Shown one piece after another: positions 7,329-52,090 of a stretch of DNA of 64,000 nucleotides. The DNA lies in assembly GCA_016872645.1 (NCBI GenBank), contig VGZH01000022.1, positions 1-64,000 on the forward strand, written 5' to 3'. Numbering within the stretch: position 1 is the stretch's first letter; every line of letters starts with the position of its first letter. This DNA is from Planctomycetota bacterium. Lineage in GTDB: Bacteria > Planctomycetota > Planctomycetia > Planctomycetales > Planctomycetaceae. The position numbers and the translations under genes are program-made. The notes below the pieces were generated by a model. The model searched no databases, had not been told where the DNA came from, and was given only the letters and a program-made list of their open reading frames with translations.

Positions 7329-9332
7329 CTAAGCGGTTGTCACCGGCAGCGGGTAGAGAACCGCGGTCGGCTTGGGCATTGAGTCGCGCGGGTCTTTTTC
7401 TTGTTCGTCGGCCATGACGGTGTCGACGAGAAAGTACAAGAGCTGACGGATGTCTTCCGATTCGACTTCGTCGGCAAGCAGTTCCGCTCGGTCGCGCGAT
7501 TTTTCGATCAGCCGCTCGGCCTTCTCGAAGACGCCGAGTTCTTCGTACAGGCGGCGAAGGCGAGCGAGGCGGATGGCATCTTGTTCCTCGCGGTCGAAAT
7601 AGCAGCTTTGCATGAGCTGCCGTTGCTCGGCACTCGCAGCTTGCCAAGCAAGCGCCATCATCAGCGTCGGCCGCAGTGCGAGGGCGTCTTGGCCGGCGAC
7701 CATCTTGTTGTCGTTGTCGCCGCGCCAGTCTTTCAGGTCGTTGAGAATCTGAAAGCCGATGCCAACGTGCCGACAGAACGGACCGACCAGCGATTCGTAC
7801 TCCTCGACCGGGCCAGCCATGCGGAGTCCGGCGTACAGCGCGGCCTCGAAGGCGGGGGACGTCTTGAGAGCGTAGATTTGCAGAGCATCCAGCGGCGTGA
7901 AATCGAGGGTTGGGTTCTGCTGCCAGAACATTTCGGCCCCTTGGCCATCGCAGAGCTTGATGTGCGCGGCGGCCATCCGTTCGAGAACGTCGCAGGCGAC
8001 ATCGTGGGGTAGGCTTCCGGCCTGCCGTGCCTGATCTGTAACGGCGGTGTCTTGGGGAACGGCTGGCTGGCAGCCTACCCCGCGAGAAGCGGCAATCAGC
8101 TTGTAGCCGAGCCCGATCAGGTGGTCACCGACGTTGATCGCTGGGCCGAGGCCGTGGGTGCGGTGCAGTGTTTCGCGGCCGTAGCGGAACAGGTCGTCGT
8201 CTTCGATGTCGTCGTGGACCAGCGAGGCTTTGTGGAACGCCTCGATCGACATTGCGACGCGCGCGACCGAGTCAGGGAACTCGAACGGCTGGGTGCTGGA
8301 GTCGAAATTCTTCAGGCACGATCCGCCCGTCGCGGCATCGTAGGCGGCGAGCGTGATGAACGGCCGGAATCGCTTTCCACCGTTGCGAAGCCAGTCGTAG
8401 GAGATGTCTTCGGTCTTGCCGAGCGGCGTCGCGGCGGACTCCGGCGTCTTGCTGCGGACGCGCGGCAGCAACCGATCGAAATGTTCGTCGAACAAGCGAT
8501 TGGCGGCTCGCATCACCGAGACGTAGCCGGTCAGTCGTTGATCCGGCAGCGGTTCGTACTTGTCGAGCACTTCCCAAATCCAAGATTCGTCCAGCGACGT
8601 GTTGTGGCAATCGCCCGAGTGCAGCGGCACCGCGTAGCTCGGCACACCCGCGATCAGGACTTTGTCGATCGCCTTCTCGAGCACGTTTAAGCAGGCGACG
8701 CCGAGGATTCCATCGACGTACCCGCCAACGATGATCTTCAGCACGATCGGCGAGCCCTCTGCCACCAGCACCTTGTAGCCAAGTTGTTCGGCCCGCACTT
8801 TGTAGTCAGCGATCGTGCAGGCTCCGCAACGTTCGCAGTCGAGCCCGAATTCGGTGTACTCGGCCGGGCAGCCTTCGGCATGCTTCAGGCAGTGAGGCAG
8901 CAGAAGCATCCGCCGCTCGAACGGCGTCGCGAGGAATTGCCGACGCCAAAAGTAGTTGCCGATCATCACCGCCGCGAAGCCGCTGTATTTCTCCGGCAGC
9001 GACATCTCGGCGAGCAACTGCATCGACCACGCCGTCAACTGCGTCTTGTTGAACGGCTTCGAATGATCCAGCTTCTCGGAGAACTGCTGAGCCTTCGCCT
9101 TGACGAGTTCCCGCAACTCCAGCGTCTCCGGCACAATCTTCAGGTGCGAGGTGCTGGAGCGAATTTTCTTCCGCTTGGGCATCGGCTCGTCGTCATCGTC
9201 CTGGATGTCCGAGACTCTCCGACGCGCCACAGCGTCCCCATTCCTCCGTTCCGGCAGAGGTGCGTCCTGATCGACGGCGTGTGACTGCTCAACCCGATCA
9301 TCCGGTTCTCGCAATTGCGAAGCGATGGACAT
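7329..9332 (-). CDS. DUF116-polyprenyl synthase fusion
   Basis: A 667-residue two-domain protein. The ATG at 9332 is supported by GAGGAAA about 7 nt upstream. Residues ~55-290 form a DUF116-like region with five close cysteines (C148, C155, C166, C169, C172; segment [14 protein letters not shown]), suggesting a metal site. Residues ~300-660 are a trans-isoprenyl diphosphate synthase: GGKRFRP substrate loop, first Asp-rich motif DDIED at D374-D378, second motif NDLKD at 531-535. In the second motif the first Asp is replaced by Asn. Such enzymes condense IPP with allylic diphosphates, but product length cannot be read from sequence. Residues ~418-443 are encoded by a palindromic repeat inserted in frame. 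The gene lies 34 bp after a small membrane-protein gene and downstream of a terpene cyclase, so a role in polycyclic terpenoid synthesis is inferred. Confidence 0.85.
8006..8081. repeat. Palindromic repeat inserted in frame in the polyprenyl synthase gene
   Basis: The left arm at 8006-8026 begins GGGGTAGGCTTCCGGCC. The reverse complement of the right arm at 8061-8081 begins GGGGTAGGCTGCCAGCC. The 21-nt arms match at 18 positions, separated by 34 nt. The element sits wholly within the coding sequence without breaking the frame. It encodes a Gly/Ala/Gln-rich segment between [12 protein letters not shown] and [13 protein letters not shown], where prenyl synthases normally have a short loop. Confidence 0.7.
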
Positions 9333-9366
9333 TATTGATTTCCTCGAACAGTGGCGAAGACGCTGG

Positions 9367-9621
9367 TCATTTTGCCAAATCGACGGTGTAACCGCGGCTT
9401 CGTTGTTCGGCCTTCCAAGATTCGATGTGCTTCTTCTCGTCGTAGTTTACCGGCACTTTGAACCAGATTTCGTTGAACATCTCAACTTGCTCGCCGGTCG
9501 CCGGATTCTGCAGGACAGAAATGACTTTCGGCTTGGCGTTCCATCCGGCTGCAATCGCCGCAACACCAAGCCCCAGAAGGACAATTCCGATCGCAGACAG
9601 CGCGATAATTCCTTTCTTCAG
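9367..9621 (-). CDS. Small single-pass membrane protein with probable CTG start
   Basis: An 84-residue open frame with no ATG, GTG or TTG near its beginning. The only plausible start is CTG at 9621-9619, preceded by GGGGAGAG about 6 nt upstream. It overlaps the cyclase stop in the form CTGA, the usual arrangement of translational coupling. From that start the product begins (M)[18 protein letters not shown], a classic positively charged N-terminus plus a transmembrane helix (residues ~4-26). A soluble tail follows, containing [20 protein letters not shown] and a basic C-terminus ending RGYTVDLAK. The stop is TGA at 9369-9367, 34 bp before the prenyl synthase start. The family is not recognised. 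A role alongside the cyclase or prenyl synthase at the membrane is inferred from position only. The first conventional start (ATG, residue 48) would remove the membrane helix. Confidence 0.7.
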
Positions 9622-11780
9622 GGCTCTCTCCCCTCAACTTCAACCGCTTTGCGGAGCGCCGCGACGGTGAAGATCAGCGGATACAGGGCCTCAAAATACC
9701 ATAACTTGGCGAAATAGAAACCGATGGGGGACGGATCACGGAATCGACCGTCTTCCACGCGGGGGATTAACCAAGATAGTCCGGCATCGGTTGCGAGGCT
9801 GAGTGGCGAGGGCTGAGACGCAAAGGCCGCGGCATTTCGGCGTTCGACCTCTTCATTCCGCATTCCCAGCAAGGCCTCCAGCGCCAGGGCCGTTTCCTCG
9901 ACGCTCGACGGCGTTCCCGGTCCCGCGCCCCACCCGCCGTCGGGATTTTGGTTCTCGACGAGCCACCTCACGCCGCGAACGGCCGAGTCGTCTGACATCC
10001 GCCCCAACGCCTGAAACGCCGCCAACACCTTGGCCGTCCCGTACGTCGGGTTCTCGTCATTCGGAGCGTGCTGATTCCCAAACCACAACGGCAGCCACGA
10101 TCCATCGGGACGCTGAGTGCGTTCAAAGTAATTCGAGATGACGAACCGCTGAAAAGCACAACGACCTCGCCAGTATCGTTTGAACTTACGGCGAAACTTC
10201 GCGTCGATCTGACTTTGTCGCGACCTTGGCTCGGCGGAACGCAACGCTTCGATCGGTGGCGACGGCTCTAAATCGTCACCATCGTCCCCATCGGCATCAC
10301 CGAAAAGAACTTTGTCCAATGCGCGAATCGAGTGCGCGCTGATATCCGGGGCGCTACGGTCGAACGGCAACGTCCCCCAGCCGCGACAGAAGGTTGGCCA
10401 TCCACCGTCGCGATTCTGAAGACCGCACAGCCACACCATCGCGTCGTCCACGGCTTCATCCCAATCTGGGAAGTCGAGCAATCGCTGATTCTGCGATTGA
10501 GGAATCGTACTATTAGCGGCGGCATTGCGGATCGAGGAGTCTTCAAAACCGAGATTCATAAGCGCGAGTATCGCCCCTGGCGTATCGTCGGCGTCGGGGA
10601 CTCCGCCGGGGAGGTCGGTCCAGGCCCAGCCGCCGGGGGCGGCGTTGGTGTAGGGATGTACGACTCGATATTGCTGCCGCAGCAACCACGCTCGCAGCCC
10701 CGGCCGAGCCTCCCGCGGCACGTCGTCTCCCAACGCATTGATCGACAACGTCGTCACCCACGTCGCCAGGTTTGTATCAATCGGCCAGGAGCAGACGGGT
10801 TGGGGGTTGGAGGACAAAGGCTGCATTTCTTTCTGCCCCCTGACCCCTGACCCCTGACCCCTCTCGTCCCACCGCGCCGACTTCACGATGAACTCAATCC
10901 CACGCTGCGCGACCGGGTGATCGTGCAGGCCCATCGCGGCGAGGCTCATGGTGACGAAGCTGGTCAGCGGGGTCGCTTCCAAGAAGCCGCCGTTCGTCGG
11001 TTGAATCCGCTCGAGCACGCGCAAGCTGGCGGGCTTCGCCCAACGTTGCAGCCATCGCCGCAGCGGATTTCTCGACGGCCGAAAATGGAATCGCACCTGC
11101 CCAATCGCGATGAGCGCGGGGAGTGCGTAGCTCACGACCGGCAGCCGCACCGCCGCATAAAACTTTGCGGGAATGCAGGCCAATTCAAACGGCAGGGAGA
11201 TGACCTCGGCCCAATCGACAAGTCCCGCGAGCGCGCAGTGCGTGAGGATCGGCACCGAAAACGTGCGGTCTTTGCCGTAGCGGGCGATGACTGCGGACAC
11301 GCCGCCTGCGCAGTCGATGTAGCCGGCTGCTGAGTCAAGAGTGGGGACTGACGAGTGGGGAGTCATATCTTCCGAATTTCCCATTCTCGACTCTCCACTC
11401 TCCACCGCCTTCAGCGTCGCCCGGCACAGCATCGTCGTCGAGATGTTGCTGAGACTCTTGACCGTGTCACCCCAGCCGCCGTCGGCGTTTTGATGAACGA
11501 TCAGCCATTCGACGCCGCCGCGAATCAGCGTGAGCCATTCCGCCGGCACTTCGCGACCGATGGCGACGTATTGCCGCCGCATTTGCTCGAGCGCCATGAT
11601 GGCTGTCGCTGTTGCGAGTGCCGAGGTCGAAAGCTCGCCGACCCAATGTCGCATTTCGCTGACCGGCACATCGAGCAACCTCTGAACGGGATCGTCTGCC
11701 GAGACCGGCTCGCCCACCATCTCTGCCAACAGCGCGGCCTTCGCGGTTTCGCAGGCAGAGCGGATGCGGGCGGGAGTCAT
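9618..11780 (-). CDS. Class II terpene cyclase (squalene/hopene cyclase-like)
   Basis: A 720-residue prenyltransferase/squalene-oxidase-repeat protein. The start ATG at 11780 (MTPARIRSACETAKAAL) is preferred because the 32 upstream codons include a dispersed repeat. The catalytic acid motif is DADDTP at 396-401, corresponding to DXDD of squalene-hopene cyclases, which protonate the polyene and start cyclisation. QW-type repeats include QNADGGWGDT, QNRDGGWPTFCRGWG and QNPDGGWGAGPGTPSS. The length exceeds the ~630 residues I recall for bacterial hopene cyclases, partly because of three low-complexity stretches that resemble translated intergenic repeats. The enzyme is probably a monotopic membrane protein. 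Its substrate could be squalene or another polyprenyl chain; no squalene synthase is present in the window. The stop overlaps the small membrane-protein gene. Confidence 0.85.
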   Translation of the reverse strand: MTPARIRSACETAKAALLAEMVGEPVSADDPVQRLLDVPVSEMRHWVGELSTSALATATAIMALEQMRRQYVAIGREVPAEWLTLIRGGVEWLIVHQNADGGWGDTVKSLSNISTTMLCRATLKAVESGESRMGNSEDMTPHSSVPTLDSAAGYIDCAGGVSAVIARYGKDRTFSVPILTHCALAGLVDWAEVISLPFELACIPAKFYAAVRLPVVSYALPALIAIGQVRFHFRPSRNPLRRWLQRWAKPASLRVLERIQPTNGGFLEATPLTSFVTMSLAAMGLHDHPVAQRGIEFIVKSARWDERGQGSGVRGQKEMQPLSSNPQPVCSWPIDTNLATWVTTLSINALGDDVPREARPGLRAWLLRQQYRVVHPYTNAAPGGWAWTDLPGGVPDADDTPGAILALMNLGFEDSSIRNAAANSTIPQSQNQRLLDFPDWDEAVDDAMVWLCGLQNRDGGWPTFCRGWGTLPFDRSAPDISAHSIRALDKVLFGDADGDDGDDLEPSPPIEALRSAEPRSRQSQIDAKFRRKFKRYWRGRCAFQRFVISNYFERTQRPDGSWLPLWFGNQHAPNDENPTYGTAKVLAAFQALGRMSDDSAVRGVRWLVENQNPDGGWGAGPGTPSSVEETALALEALLGMRNEEVERRNAAAFASQPSPLSLATDAGLSWLIPRVEDGRFRDPSPIGFYFAKLWYFEALYPLIFTVAALRKAVEVEGREP
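10836..10866. repeat. Tandem CCCCTGA repeat inside the cyclase gene
   Basis: Three to four tandem copies of CCCCTGA lie in the cyclase reading frame and encode a Gly/Gln/Arg-rich stretch (RGQGSGVRGQKE). Such tracts are typical of noncoding repeats, and no matching segment is expected in the cyclase fold. Confidence 0.6.
11335..11405. repeat. Imperfect GAGTGGGGA/TCTCCACTC inverted repeats inside the cyclase gene
   Basis: GAGTGGGGACTGACGAGTGG, with the complementary CTCGACTCTCCACTCTCCAC about 30 nt later, forms an imperfect inverted repeat within the coding sequence. The translated piece (ESRMGNSEDMTPHSSVPTLD) is hydrophilic and unlike cyclase sequence. Confidence 0.5.
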
Positions 11781-45931: not shown

Positions 45932-48094
45932 TCAATGCACCAGCACGAACTCGCTCGAATTCAAATACGCCCACATGGCATCCTGCCAACCGGCCGGATT
46001 CGAGCGTAACGTGGCTCCCTCGTGAACAAACCGCCGCAGCGACTGCAACTCTTTTGGCGTCGGATATCGAGTCAGCGTCGCAAGACACAATCGTCGGATC
46101 TTCTCGGCCTCGGGATCACGGCTGTTAACGAGTTTTTCGAGGAACGTCCCGCGGTCTGTGCTCAAAGCCTGTTGCGTGAGATCACTGTTCATCATCAGCA
46201 ATGCTTGAGTAATGCTGCTCTCGAAAGTGATCGACTCATCGTTCTCATCTGTCTGAAAGGCGTGGACGAACTGCTGCAACCACTCGTGTCGGCGGCGGTC
46301 ATGATCGCCAGTCGCCAAGGGTGTCTTGTCCGCTCCGGTGGCAACTAACAACGAATCGTACAACTGCTCGGCAGTCATCCCTTTGACGTAGACCCGACTG
46401 AACAGCGGCGACGCGCCGGTTTCGGGATTGTCCTGCTCATTCGATTTTCCGAAACGGCTACTGCGTTGATACGCGTCGCTCAAGCAAATCCAGCGAATCA
46501 ATTGCTTGCAGTCATAGCCACTGGCTACGAACTCACGGGCGAGATGATCCAATAATTCCGGATGGCTCGGCGGATTGTGTGGCCCCATATCGTCGACAGG
46601 ACGAGTGAACCCGCAACCAAAGAAGTGATCCCATATTCGGTTCACGAATGACTCTGCCACCAGCGGCTTTTCGCCTAACGTCATCAGCTTGGCCAGTTCA
46701 TTGCGGCGATTCGTGTCCGCGTCGTCGTTGATCGAGGTCCCTTCAAACTTCGGGTAGGTCACCTGCATCAACCCGCGCCGAGTCTCGAAATGAGTCGGGC
46801 CGCCGACATGTTTCGTCTCCAACGCGGAGGCTTGCGACTTCATCTTACCCGTGGTGTCGCTGCGATCCACGCGAGCAACCTTCGTCTGCTGGAAAAAGCT
46901 GTTGAAGGACCAGAAGGCGTCTTGCTTCCAATCATTGAATGGGTGGTCGTGACACTGTGTACAACCAATCTGACGTCCCAGAAAAATCTTCGCTGTGATT
47001 GCCGTGGCCGGGACCGCTTGGTTGTTTAGGTGGGCCAGCAAAAAGTTGGTCGCCCCATTCTGATCGAATGACCCTTCCGCCGAGATGAATTCGGCAACCA
47101 TTTCGTTCCACGGCCGATTCTTCGCAAAGCTTTCTCGCAGAAACTTCTGAAGAGCGGCGCGATTCACGTCACGTGAGTCCGATCGGCCAATCAGCAGATT
47201 GGTCCACACAACTGTCCAATTACGAATGTAAGCCGGATCATCAAGTAACGTGTCCAGCAGCTTCTCTCGTTTGCGGAGATCACGGTCAGCCAGGAACTTC
47301 TCCGCGACTTCGACCGCAGGAATGTGTCCAACCACGTCGAGATAAACTCGCCGCAACCATTCGGGGTCGTCCGCCAGCGGCGACGGATCGACTCCCTGCA
47401 CCTTCCAACCGGCGGCAAGGTGTTCGTTGATGACGGCGACGATACCCTGCACCGAACCGTCCGCTTTGGCTACCGTATTGCTGCTGGCAAGCCTTTGAGC
47501 AGTCGCATCACTCGCCAGGGTCTTCGGCTTGTCTGTGACATTCAGATCGCGCGGACCATCTTCCGTCTCCCCCGTCGAACTCTCCGACTTCGGACGCTCT
47601 GTCAGCATGACCGGTTGGCTCGGCGGCGGTTGTTCCTGCTTTCGAGCAACATCCATCGGTTCGGCGTTGTTCGCGGCATGTGGTTGAATCGAGCTTGGTT
47701 TGTCGTCACTGGCAAGCTGCGGAGTGTGGTCATTGTTCGGCACGAACCAGCGGCCAGCAGAGAATGAGAACCCGGCAATCACTGCCACACAAGCCGCCAA
47801 AACGAGCAGGCCACGCATTCCTCGCTTTTCAGCAGGTCGCATGGGGTCTGAATCCGAAGCCAGACGCGGGGCAACCGCCGGCTCAAAATTGGCCCCGTCG
47901 GTTCCGAATGCCGTGTTCCAATGTAGCGTGCCGTGCAAGTCCAAATAGGCGAGATACGCCCGGCGAGCACTGACGTTGCGCAGCACAAAGCGTTCAAGCC
48001 GCTGTGCGCCGGGGTTGTCGAGCCGGTCTTCGCACAGCGCTTCGAGTAGCTCGAAGAACTCTGGCGACAAGTTGGAAATGTCTCGCGGAGTCAT
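45932..48094 (-). CDS. Anti-sigma-like membrane protein fused to DUF1549/DUF1553
   Basis: A 720-residue protein. Its ATG (48094) overlaps the stop of the ECF sigma gene (ATGA). Residues 1-60 (SPEFFELLEALCEDRLDNPG; RRAYLAYLDLHGTLHW) match the cytoplasmic anti-sigma-like region found downstream of many planctomycete ECF genes. One membrane helix lies at ~95-114 (LLVLAACVAVIAGFSFSAG), then a ~100-residue disordered linker. DUF1549 follows with CTQCHDHPFNDW (C378, C381, H382; a heme-c-like CxxCH) and DUF1553 with [20 protein letters not shown]. The extracellular half is a close paralogue of the 50109-51845 product. Predicted: the outside domain senses a signal and controls sigma release. Confidence 0.85.
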   Translation of the reverse strand: MTPRDISNLSPEFFELLEALCEDRLDNPGAQRLERFVLRNVSARRAYLAYLDLHGTLHWNTAFGTDGANFEPAVAPRLASDSDPMRPAEKRGMRGLLVLAACVAVIAGFSFSAGRWFVPNNDHTPQLASDDKPSSIQPHAANNAEPMDVARKQEQPPPSQPVMLTERPKSESSTGETEDGPRDLNVTDKPKTLASDATAQRLASSNTVAKADGSVQGIVAVINEHLAAGWKVQGVDPSPLADDPEWLRRVYLDVVGHIPAVEVAEKFLADRDLRKREKLLDTLLDDPAYIRNWTVVWTNLLIGRSDSRDVNRAALQKFLRESFAKNRPWNEMVAEFISAEGSFDQNGATNFLLAHLNNQAVPATAITAKIFLGRQIGCTQCHDHPFNDWKQDAFWSFNSFFQQTKVARVDRSDTTGKMKSQASALETKHVGGPTHFETRRGLMQVTYPKFEGTSINDDADTNRRNELAKLMTLGEKPLVAESFVNRIWDHFFGCGFTRPVDDMGPHNPPSHPELLDHLAREFVASGYDCKQLIRWICLSDAYQRSSRFGKSNEQDNPETGASPLFSRVYVKGMTAEQLYDSLLVATGADKTPLATGDHDRRRHEWLQQFVHAFQTDENDESITFESSITQALLMMNSDLTQQALSTDRGTFLEKLVNSRDPEAEKIRRLCLATLTRYPTPKELQSLRRFVHEGATLRSNPAGWQDAMWAYLNSSEFVLVH

Positions 48095-48663
48095 GTGGTT
48101 CTCGCAGCGGCCGTAAGGCGGCGCGTGACACAATCGAACAAAACTTTACGGATACGACCTATCGACTGGTAAACCGAATTGGCTGGCCGGCCCAATTGCT
48201 CGGCAACTTTTAAACCGTTCTCACCGGGAGCGTACCGAGCTTGAATCAATTCCAGGTCGTCCGCCTTCAGGCGGCGAAGGCATTCGGATAACGCCTCGCG
48301 CCGCTGTTCAAGTTCATCGTTCAGTTCAATCGCCTCAGCGGCGACCGTCGAAATGAACTCGTCGCTAAATTGCAAACGGCCGGCTCGTTTCTTCTCCCGA
48401 TATTTGAGGATCTCGTAAGTTGCGATTTTTCCGGCCCAGGCAAAGAAGCTTGTGCCGAGTTGGAACTGATGACATTTGCTCCAAATGATGACGTTTGTGT
48501 CTTGCAGAATTTCCTCGGCATCGGTCAGGCTGCTGACTTGAGCCAAGATGAACAAAAACAGTCGTCGCTGGGATTTTGTGAAGAGCTGCACAAACTCCGC
48601 ATTCGGCACTTGATCCAAGGAGCCGATTTCGTCCGCGGATTCTGATAGGTGCGGCTCGGACAT
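48091..48663 (-). CDS. ECF-family RNA polymerase sigma factor
   Basis: A 190-residue sigma-70 family protein. Region 2 contains RRLFLFILAQVSSLTDAEEI and LQDTNVIIWSK (the -10 recognition and melting part). Region 4 contains LSECLRRLKADDLELIQARY and NGLKVAEQLGRPANSVYQSI (helix-turn-helix for -35). It resembles the planctomycete ECF type (also seen in Rhodopirellula/Verrucomicrobium). It is translationally coupled to the downstream anti-sigma-like DUF1549/1553 fusion, and follows a DUF1549/1553-DUF1501 pair after a hairpin. Confidence 0.9.
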   Translation of the reverse strand: MSEPHLSESADEIGSLDQVPNAEFVQLFTKSQRRLFLFILAQVSSLTDAEEILQDTNVIIWSKCHQFQLGTSFFAWAGKIATYEILKYREKKRAGRLQFSDEFISTVAAEAIELNDELEQRREALSECLRRLKADDLELIQARYAPGENGLKVAEQLGRPANSVYQSIGRIRKVLFDCVTRRLTAAARTT

Positions 48664-48699
48664 GTTTTCAAAACAATCAAAAGTCAGATACCGGTTACG

Positions 48700-48727
48700 A
48701 AGACGGGGGCCGCTTGGCCCCCGTCTT
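48700..48727 (-). terminator. Perfect 12-bp GC-rich hairpin between DUF1501 and ECF sigma genes
   Basis: AAGACGGGGGCC (48700-48711), loop GCTT, then GGCCCCCGTCTT (48716-48727). It lies in the 87-bp gap between the DUF1501 stop and the sigma start, all on the minus strand. There is no T-run on the minus strand, so it may be an attenuator, mRNA stabiliser or processing site rather than a full terminator. Confidence 0.6.
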
Positions 48728-48750
48728 GAATCCGTTCAGAGGCCTCTCGA

Positions 48751-50049
48751 TTAGCCGATGAGTTCTGGAATCGGAGCGCCGCCGTTGGCAATCTTCATCG
48801 GACGGCCTCGCTTAGAGGTGTGAACCGTCGTCGTCGGAATGCCGAGGGCATGACACGCCGTGGCCCAAATGTCTCCGGGGAGATACGGCTTCGTCTCGCA
48901 AGTCAGTCCGTCGGCGTCAGTCGCTCCAACACCTAAGCCACCCTTGAGATTTCCGCCACCAATCATATTTGACCAGCTCGCGGCCCAGTGATCGCGACCG
49001 ACATCTTGGTTAATGCGCGGCGTGCGGCCGAACTCGCCCATCCACACCAGCACGACGTCCTTGATCATGCTGCGTTCCTTGAGGTCCGTGACCAACGCAG
49101 AAATCGCAGTATCCATCGCCGGAAGGTTGTTGTTCTTCAACGTATTGAACACGTTCGCGTGCAAGTCCCAGCCACCCATGCCGACTTCGACGAACGGCAC
49201 CCCAGCTTCGACCAAGCGACGAGCCATCAGCAGGCCACGGCCAAACTCGCCGCCGGCACGCATCATTCCCCCCGCGGGGGCTCCGGCGTTGGTGTATCGG
49301 TCGATCGTCTTCGGGTCTTCCTTGTCGATCTTGAAGGCTTCCATCTGCTTCGAAGTCATCAGGTCGATGGCCTTCTTGTAGACGTCCTTGTGAGCCTGCG
49401 GAGCTTCGCCGCGTTTCGACGCAATGAAGCTGTCTTCGATCGTGCCGAGCATCGCAAGGCGGTTACGGAAACGCCCTGCGTCCATACCGCCCATGTCGGC
49501 ATTCTGGATGCGGCCTTGCGTATTGACGACGAACGCCGCGTTGGACATGCCCAGGAAGCCCGGACTGCCAGGATCACCGCCGATCGAGACGAACGAGGGG
49601 ATTTCCAGTTCCTTGCGCTGCGATCCGAGTTCGTGACTGACTACCGAACCAAATGTCGGATGGACGACAGTCGGATTCGGCACGAAGCTAGTGTGCATGT
49701 AGTAACGACCACGTCCGTGATCGGCTTCACGAGTACTCATCGAACGCACGACGTTGAGCACGTCGAATTGAGCAGCTGTCTTCGGCATATGCTCGCTGAT
49801 CTGCGTGCCACCAGCCGTGATCGGCTTGAACTCGCCGCCGTTCTTTGAACCCGGCTTCAAGTCCCAAATGTCGATGGTCGGAGGACCACCGCCCATCCAC
49901 ATCAGGATGCAAGCCTTTTGATTTTTCTTGAGAGTCTCCGCGTGAACCTGCAGGTGCTGCATGAACTGAATCGCGGGGATCGTGGCCGCGCTGGCAGCCA
50001 TGTGACGCATAAAGTGTCGGCGAGTCATGCCGGCGGGAATGAAGCTCAT
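48751..50049 (-). CDS. DUF1501 exported protein
   Basis: A 432-residue protein. The ATG at 50049 has AAAGGA upstream. The twin-arginine signal is [20 protein letters not shown]. Family motifs include [56 protein letters not shown] and [20 protein letters not shown]. It follows the DUF1549/1553 gene by 59 bp, the usual planctomycete pairing. The function of the pair is not established; a surface sulfatase/phosphatase-like role has been suggested from fold only. Confidence 0.9.
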
Positions 50050-50108
50050 GGGATTTCCTTTCAAAAAGTTGGGTTGATCAAAGTTTTCAGATTTTAAATC
50101 TGAGATCT

Positions 50109-51845
50109 CTAGTGGATGAAAATGAACTCATTCGAGTTCAAAAGTGCCCAGAACATGTCTTGGTATGCTGCTAACTTGTCCGGGTTTACTCGAAGCAAGT
50201 CTTGAGCACCCTTGGCTTCCTTAGGACTTGGAGCACGACCGAGCGCCGTCAAGTACAGACGACGAATTCGATCGGTATCTTTCGGAGCCTCGGCGAGGAT
50301 CGTGTTGAGAAAACTCCCCTTTTGAGCACTGATCGCATCCTTCACGAGATCACCATTCATCATCATCAAAGCCTGCGGAATCGAGCCGTTGAAGGTCGTC
50401 GATTCGTCCCCTTCATCGGTCCCGAAGGCAACAACAAACTGCCGCAACCAAACTCGCTTCTTGTCCTCGGCTTGTTCCCAGCTAGAGCGGCCCGATTTGT
50501 GAGCATTTGTCGCCACGATCAGCGAATCGTAAAGCTGTTCCGCCGACATTGACTTCAAATAGACGTGGCTGAACATCGCCGTTGTGCCAGCAGCCGGGTT
50601 GTCCTTCTCTTCGTTAACTTTCGAAGCCTGACTGGTGAGATTGTACGCTTCGGAGTTGCAAATCCAACGGATGAGTTGCTTCACGTCGTAGCGCGACTTG
50701 ACGAACTCATTGCCCAGGCGATCGAGCAAGTCAGGATGCGAGGGCGGATTGTGCGGCCCCATGTCATCGACCGGCTTAGTGATGCCGTAGCCGAAGAATT
50801 GACTCCACATGCGATTGACCATTGCCAAGGCCGCCAGCGGCTTTTCACCGTCGATCATCAACTTTGCAAGCACTTCGCGACGATTGACGTCCCAGCCGTC
50901 TTTGTCCTTTTGAGCCACTTCGTCAATGAGGTCCTTGCCGAAATAGCGAGGGTACGCAGCTTCAATCAAGCCATTACGCTTCTCGTAGGTGACATGATCG
51001 GAGACGCCGTCGCGACGTATCAGTTCAGAATAATCATCGACCATCCGACCTGCTTTCGCGTCGTACTTCCGATGATCTTCCCTCTGCAACTGGCGGAAGA
51101 AGTTATTGAACTCCCAAAACTGCCGCTGCTGCCAATCATTGAACGGATGGTTGTGGCACTGCGTACATTGCACTTGCATACCCAAGAAGAGTCGCGTCGT
51201 CTTGGCTGTCGCGAGCACTCCGTCGTCCGGCATCACCATTTGAGCCAGCAGAAAATTGACCGCGCCGTTTTCCTCGAAATGCCCTTCCGCAGAGACAATG
51301 TCCATCACCACGTCATTCCAGGGGCGATTCTTGGTGAACGCTTCGCGAAGAAATTTCTCCATCCCTTTGCGACTGACTCGCCGGGGAGTATCTTGGCCGA
51401 TCATCAAATTGGCCCAGACGTTCGTCCAATGACGAACATAGCCTGGATCGTCGAGCAGCGTGTCGATCAACTTCGATCGTTTGGCCTTATCCTTGTCGGC
51501 CAGAAACTTTTCGACCTCTTCCATAGGGGGCACATGACCGACGATGTCGAGATACACGCGGCGCACCCACTCACCATCGCCAGCGACTTCCGAAGCTTCG
51601 ATCTCGTTGTCGGTCCAGCCTTGGCGGATTTGTTCGTTGATGAACGAGATGAGCACGTCGGAGGAGCCAGTCGTAAAATCTACACGCTTCTTCGCGACGG
51701 GCTTGGTGTCCGCAGTCGCGACTTTGGACTTCGACTCTTTTGATCCTGATTCCTCCGCTGTAATCGCGACGGAGGCACTAACCGCGATGGCCAGAGCGGC
51801 CACAGCCCAGAGTGCCCACCGACTTCCGCTCCACGTCCGCATCAT
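50109..51845 (-). CDS. DUF1549/DUF1553 exported protein
   Basis: A 578-residue protein with a signal peptide ([19 protein letters not shown]). DUF1549 includes [20 protein letters not shown] and the heme-c-like [12 protein letters not shown] (CxxCH starting at C227). DUF1553 includes [20 protein letters not shown] and [18 protein letters not shown]. It is closely related to the C-terminal half of the 45932-48094 product but lacks the anti-sigma/TM region. It is the first gene of the minus-strand set leading to DUF1501, ECF sigma and the fusion. Confidence 0.9.
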
Positions 51846-52090
51846 TCGAGTTCTCCCCGATCAAGAGCTATTCGCGCCGTTTGCTTGCGATACAGCACAC
51901 AACTAACTTCGAGTCCATCTGATCGTTTCGCAAATTCGTCGCAGGATGATACCTGAAGCAAACCTGTGACGTTCGCCACATTCTGTTTGGATTTGAAAAT
52001 CGACTTTTGGCTGGGCCGCAGTCTATTGGCCTAACCCGTTCTCCGAAAGCCATTTGAGCCCATTTCTACGGGCTACCGAAGGAACCTTCG

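Follow-up and report, generated by a model that had tools for sequence, protein, structure and literature searches.

A predicted ECF sigma factor system of planctomycetes whose membrane sensor appears to be a duplicate of the effector it controls

The DNA analyzed here, hereafter the window, is a stretch of 64,000 nucleotides (nt) from a Planctomycetota bacterium of the family Planctomycetaceae (contig VGZH01000022.1, positions 1–64,000), and our subject is the locus at 45932–51845 within it. In this locus four genes, whose coordinates were checked in the window, follow one another on the minus strand. They encode, in order, PSC, an effector with DUF1549 and DUF1553 domains; a DUF1501 protein; an extracytoplasmic function (ECF) sigma factor; and a fusion protein in which a predicted anti-sigma domain is joined through a membrane helix to a second copy of the DUF1549/DUF1553 module. 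We consider it quite probable that these genes make up an autoregulated ECF/anti-sigma system in which the sensor is a duplicate of the effector.

In the mechanism we propose, the N-terminal domain of the fusion would hold the sigma factor at the membrane in the resting state, a step suggested by its fold, its neighborhood and the module it has in common with a second sigma system of the same genome. The periplasmic part of the fusion, as a duplicate of the effector, would most likely respond to whatever ligand, partner or redox state the effector itself sees. Upon such a signal the sigma factor would be released, and PSC, DUF1501, sigma factor and sensor would be transcribed from a predicted CGAAC-N17-GGTAT promoter.

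PSC and the fusion both score far above the Pfam cut-offs for PSCyt2 (DUF1549; 161 and 153 bits, respectively) and PSD1 (DUF1553; 137 and 152 bits), and they are 51% identical to each other. Inspection of the translations shows an N-terminal signal peptide in PSC, and in the DUF1501 protein an N-terminal twin-arginine motif, TRRHF, which suggests export by the twin-arginine translocation (Tat) pathway. The sigma factor passes the curated TIGR02989 cut-off of 124.55 with 147.2 bits, over profile positions 2–158 of 158. Its stop codon overlaps the ATG of the fusion gene in the sequence ATGA (48094–48091), so that the longer fusion frame of 733 amino acids (aa), opening at a TTG at 48133, is not needed. 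In the AlphaFold model of the fusion, N-terminal helices span residues 4–59 and the outside part is ordered from about residue 210, with a mean predicted local distance difference test score (pLDDT) of 80.9. A preliminary description of this DNA had pointed to the ATGA overlap, to a close paralog without the anti-sigma part lying upstream with DUF1501 on the same strand, and to a single membrane helix and a long linker in front of DUF1549/DUF1553; the gene coordinates, the predicted helix (residues 92–112) and linker (114–207) and the Pfam matches agree with all of these.

The N-terminal part of the fusion is matched by no model of Pfam or NCBIfam. We nevertheless regard an anti-sigma domain as very likely here, in view of its neighborhood, a profile match to a second anti-sigma protein and weak four-helix fold matches. 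The sigma gene lies immediately upstream of the fusion in 60/60 loci of the same bacterial family, most of them with the full four genes; as these loci were selected for matches covering the N-terminus, the count measures linkage and not frequency. The reading frames of sigma factor and fusion overlap in about two thirds of the related loci, and a search with this domain as the only query recovers it from 109 of 150 genomes of the family, counting open frames of 680 aa or longer. Among the loci of the window's own genome that were read, the anti-sigma profile matches one protein besides the fusion (E 7e-12), which has FecR and LamG domains outside and whose gene adjoins the only other full TIGR02989 sigma gene of the genome. 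The class I anti-sigma domains (ASDI) are small and helical, lie at the N-terminus and have the fold of RseA and RsrA. When the domain is folded alone, RsiW, MucA, ChrR and RslA appear among 36 weak Foldseek matches, the rest being mostly ribosomal proteins; MucA, ChrR and RslA superpose with a root-mean-square deviation of 1.7–2.4 Å over about 50 residues, at E-values above 1. The preliminary description had called this segment anti-sigma-like and had named its non-conservation next to ECF genes as an observation that would speak against the idea; throughout the 60 loci the segment is kept beside the ECF gene. The FecR/LamG locus itself (L159, positions 8103–10291, C122 of the same genome) consists of the second TIGR02989 sigma gene followed by the gene for the FecR/LamG anti-sigma protein with its related N-terminal domain, and further DUF1549 and DUF1501-like genes lie on its flanks.

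The origin of the outside module can be traced in phylogenies. DUF1549 has 89 matches in the window's own genome. In a tree with 28 other DUF1549 paralogs of that genome, fusions and PSCs form one clade, with a Shimodaira–Hasegawa-like approximate likelihood ratio test (SH-aLRT) support of 100, and within it they fall into two sister groups (support 89 and 87). In a more careful tree, the sensors of the window type are sister to their own PSCs with support of 100/98. A profile search found no anti-sigma domain in any of the other DUF1549 proteins of the genome that were read; these sequences therefore suggest, most simply, that the domain was gained on the fusion branch.

If the sigma factor controls the effector, a common promoter element may be expected before the first gene of the operon. 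In 25 representatives, an unbiased count of dyads upstream of PSC yielded CGAA-N19-GTTA in 9 sequences, where shuffled sets reached no more than 5. Expectation maximization (EM) arrived at CGAAC-N17-GGT(T/A); its total was 390, and that of shuffled sequences 303 ± 11. When one genus at a time was left out, 16 of the 25 held-out sequences scored at p ≤ 0.05 and 11 at p ≤ 0.01, the window's own held-out dyad reaching p = 0.005. The dyad is kept in 9/9 members of the genus where the contig reaches, and its score has a median of 16.3 upstream of PSC as compared with a mean of 4.7 in random windows. In an independent set, the median is 11.7 in genomes with the sigma pair and 4.8 in those without it (p = 0.012). 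Where a locus has no PSC, the dyad is found upstream of DUF1501 instead in several cases. It was not found in the gaps between DUF1501 and sigma genes (median score 1.7), and transcription of the sigma gene from a dyad promoter of its own was rejected on this ground. The suggestion in the preliminary description, that the sensor was duplicated from an effector under its control, is thus supported in two ways: sensor and PSC are sister clades in the trees, and a promoter-like dyad precedes the effector gene but is missing ahead of the sigma gene.

The size of the regulon was judged from a single core-pattern search of the window's own genome, which gave 7 matches versus 6 for the reversed control. 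Among the perfect matches, the operon is the only non-genic one; the other falls within a different gene and on the opposite strand. As far as pattern matches can tell, the regulon may therefore comprise no more than this operon.

Between the two exported proteins and the two regulators lies a perfect hairpin. Stems of at least 8 base pairs (bp) occur in 31 of 52 related DUF1501–sigma gaps and in none of 52 shuffled ones. The hairpin sequences vary among genera, and a run of T follows the stem in many relatives but not in the window. It is a probable attenuator or leaky terminator, which before the sigma gene would probably keep expression of sigma factor and sensor low relative to the two exported effectors.

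A scan of named genomes shows that this is one of two designs. The window-type system occurs in records that bear the names Schlesneria, Fuerstiella, Planctomicrobium and others. The Pirellulaceae (Rhodopirellula, Rubripirellula, Pirellula and relatives) have a second type, in which the order PSC-DUF1501-ECF-fusion is unchanged. The Pirellulaceae ECF factors are 22–29% identical to the window-type sigma factor and, with 80–88 bits, lie below the TIGR02989 cut-off. The cytoplasmic segment of their fusions has the motif DPLLDxxLxELLGGxxPPDLSxRIL; common ancestry of the two cytoplasmic segments was rejected, no similarity being found beyond the membrane helix. The CGAAC dyad is present in 1/13 Pirellulaceae PSC upstream regions with a sigma gene and in 0/19 without an adjacent one. 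Another dyad, GAGTAC-N-CGTT, takes its place, mostly 40–75 nt before PSC (EM total 228, against 168–177 in shuffles). Its pattern was written from the 13 sigma-bearing loci, with the 19 others as control, and it occurs in 11/13 of the former versus 2/19 of the latter (p = 3.9e-5; background 1.3% of windows); in one of the two exceptions the contig ends just after PSC.

The careful tree joins the Pirellulaceae sensors with the PSCs of their own family as sister groups (100/99), and a tree that forces all sensors into one clade, as one ancestral fusion for both families would require, is rejected (approximately unbiased test, p = 3.6e-5). The simplest reading of these sequences is that two independent duplications took place, each with its own sigma factor and its own predicted promoter. 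The same topology may, however, have come about through gene conversion acting on sensor and PSC inside each family, which would look like two duplications.

A third type of fusion was considered in the Pirellulaceae loci without a sigma gene and rejected, as the proteins with a helix that follow DUF1501 there appear to be MATE transporters. Six such loci of the Pirellulaceae type (L266, L268, L269, L270, L284 and L294) have a MATE-like gene directly after DUF1501 on the same strand, three of them confirmed by Pfam. Where the sigma pair is missing, the transporter looks like an alternative partner of the PSC-DUF1501 pair.

The two families of sensors differ in how much of the effector they retain. 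Of 123 columns conserved in PSC, the window-family sensor keeps 71 at 90% or more, and 7 are lost in most members. The Pirellulaceae sensors are degenerate, with 36/123 columns kept at 60% or more and several proteins barely recognized by Pfam. Against this background one site stands out. The preliminary description had drawn attention to a CxxCH motif in the fusion; the motif is there, but it is a general feature of DUF1549 and not specific to the fusion. Both cysteines and the histidine are invariant in 69/69 aligned relatives, and the motif is kept in 12/12 degenerate Pirellulaceae sensors, along with two tryptophans in the 11 that were aligned. The window's own genome encodes a fused ResB/CcsA-type heme c synthase, with ResB and Cytochrom_C_asm in one frame of 1338 aa, an enzyme that a c-type cytochrome would call for together with a CxxCH beyond the cytoplasmic membrane, and both are present here. 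In view of this invariance, this retention and this synthase, we take CxxCH to be the foremost candidate for the working center of the sensor, and heme c would be its likeliest cofactor. The suggestion in the preliminary description that substrate or redox state is sensed through a heme-like site thereby has indirect support only, from the degenerate sensors that keep the motif and from the synthase.

CxxCH may instead be a thiol or metal site, through which the system would sense disulfide or metal state. The DUF1549 part matched no known fold in the PDB or among viral models, and no c-type fold, and no distal heme ligand conserved across all sensors was found, which are points in favor of this alternative. 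The heme synthase and the invariance of the complete motif outside the cytoplasmic membrane argue the other way, and we regard a thiol or metal site as a substantial but lesser possibility. We propose tentatively, and with somewhat less than even confidence, that planctomycetes have twice independently recruited a duplicate of the same secreted DUF1549/DUF1553 effector as the extracytoplasmic sensor of an ECF anti-sigma factor, with the same gene order, unrelated cytoplasmic segments and different ECF groups and promoters, and that the sensor of the second lineage has decayed to little beyond CxxCH, which would make these proteins heme c-dependent anti-sigma factors.

The same conservation patterns bear on two other roles for the fusion. 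Its periplasmic part could be a docking or titration device for free DUF1501 protein or another effector partner, so that a shortage of complete effector complexes would induce the operon. Most loci have PSC next to DUF1501, even without the sigma pair, and the two so probably work together, and the many PSC columns retained by the window-family sensor would suit such an interface. However, the Pirellulaceae sensors have lost most of the conserved surface and still keep CxxCH, which points to that site rather than to a protein interface and makes docking rather unlikely. Alternatively, the fusion could be a membrane-anchored effector whose sigma-binding tail couples its own amount to transcription, no external signal being involved. 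So few conserved columns are lost in the window family that its sensor may still be active; the Pirellulaceae versions, in contrast, are unlikely to be active in their degenerate state, and a separate full effector is encoded in the same operon. We hold abundance feedback of this kind to be improbable.

Some observations weigh against the autoregulated system as proposed here. The Foldseek E-values for the anti-sigma fold exceed 1, the related genomes are not independent of one another, and 9 of the 25 held-out sigma-bearing relatives have no recognizable dyad. Two genomes without the fusion still have the dyad (L177 and L187); L177 comes from a complete genome (G018), in which another sigma factor is accompanied by a related but shorter anti-sigma protein. 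In addition, among PSC genes that have truly moved, those of one genus (L190, L191) retain the dyad and those of another (L192, L193) have only a degenerate form of it. This imperfect tracking of the sigma pair is what one would see if the dyad served a different sigma factor as promoter or were a conserved site for a regulator, the ECF factor controlling genes elsewhere and the neighborhood being kept for co-expression. Yet the dyad has the −35/−10 spacing of ECF promoters, its type changes with the type of sigma factor, it moves with the first gene, and the operon is its sole non-genic perfect match in the window's own genome; control by another regulator thus seems improbable, and autoregulation by the adjacent ECF factor remains our preferred interpretation. 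As to G018, a distant TIGR02989-like sigma gene lies away from the PSC of L177 (C1:6101390–6102099) and adjoins a frame of 476 aa with a related anti-sigma domain, possibly a rewired system.

Table 1. Features of the locus and of the fusion protein in the window
Feature	Position	Strand	Basis
PSC, effector paralog, 578 aa: DUF1549 (PSCyt2) and DUF1553 (PSD1)	50109..51845	-	Pfam; sister of sensor in trees
DUF1501 protein, 437 aa	48751..50064	-	308 bits; lies between PSC and sigma gene in most related loci
ECF sigma factor, 190 aa, TIGR02989 (Sig-70_gvs1) family	48091..48663	-	Profile score
Membrane anti-sigma/sensor fusion (predicted), 720 aa	45932..48094	-	Open reading frame, Pfam, structure model
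Predicted cytoplasmic anti-sigma domain, residues 1-60, four helices, motif YxxYxDLHGxLHW	47915..48094	-	Neighborhood, profile, model
Single membrane helix, residues 92-112	47759..47821	-	Hydropathy and model
Disordered linker, residues 114-207	47474..47755	-	pLDDT < 50
DUF1549 (PSCyt2) sensor domain, residues 222-405	46880..47431	-	Pfam
CTQCH (CxxCH), residues 378-382	46949..46963	-	Invariant in 69 aligned relatives
DUF1553 (PSD1) sensor part, from residue 463	45935..46708	-	Pfam
Perfect 12-bp hairpin between DUF1501 and sigma genes, ΔG -25.3	48700..48727	-	Stem comparison in related gaps
Predicted -35 element CGAAC	51971..51975	-	Dyad conserved in relatives
Predicted -10 element GGTAT, spacer 17, 103 nt before PSC ATG	51949..51953	-	Dyad conserved in relatives

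Individual relatives and one region of the fusion show further peculiarities. In L123 (G009), an in-frame TAG separates the anti-sigma and membrane part of the fusion (9194–9559) from its outside part (9650–11329), a separation that is either natural or due to an error in the sequence. The sigma gene of another relative (G007:C1:2915993–2916532) has an in-frame TAA, with the rest of the operon present. Residues 574–720 of the fusion (window positions 45935–46375), the C-terminal part of DUF1553, resemble the phycobilisome linker domain PF00427 with a middling Z of 7.4; in the model this may reflect a common helical arrangement only.

In Rhodopirellula baltica, the ECF factor RB10049 was proposed to regulate the neighboring PSD1/PSC2 protein RB10051 (Studholme et al. 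2004, as cited in PMC2754498), and it is induced by heat, cold and salt (PMC2754498). As in the Pirellulaceae loci read here, an ECF factor adjoins a DUF1549/DUF1553 protein, and RB10049/RB10051 would belong to the Pirellulaceae type (L264/L267/L276 loci), the sigma factor of which is a distant ECF and not that of the window. For this pair, PMC2754498 mentions no anti-sigma part, duplication, paired effector operon or promoter. The principle that the outside module of an anti-sigma factor is homologous to the effector under its control is already known from sigma-I6/RsgI6-GH10 of Clostridium thermocellum, where the outside module of the membrane anti-sigma factor is 57% identical to the controlled effector Xyn10D and the sigma factor is autoregulated (PMC4711584). 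In contrast to the system described here, however, sigma-I is not an ECF factor, the module is sugar-binding, the effectors lie elsewhere in the genome, and there is no shared ancestry with DUF1549/DUF1553. The FecR/LamG system of the window's own genome shares the TIGR02989 sigma factor and a detectably related anti-sigma domain, but differs in the FecR and LamG outside part that stands in place of DUF1549/DUF1553. BlaR1 and MecR1 have a sensor domain related to the beta-lactamase that they induce; unlike the present system, they belong to a protease-coupled repressor system without a sigma factor.

As far as the searched literature shows, it is new that an ECF system has a sensor derived from an effector encoded in its own operon, and the pair of predicted promoters, the hairpin, the proposed twofold origin and the persistence of CxxCH are new as well; this search did not extend to the literature on planctomycete ECF groups, in which an earlier description of the fusion is possible.

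The DUF1549/DUF1553 and DUF1501 families are among the most multiplied and least understood in planctomycetes. With a sensor that is a copy of the effector and is controlled together with it, one would have a direct genetic handle on what these proteins recognize, and the retained CxxCH suggests the first residues to probe. If the double origin is true, planctomycetes would further offer a natural replicate of how a protein gives rise to its own regulator, along with two types of predicted promoter.

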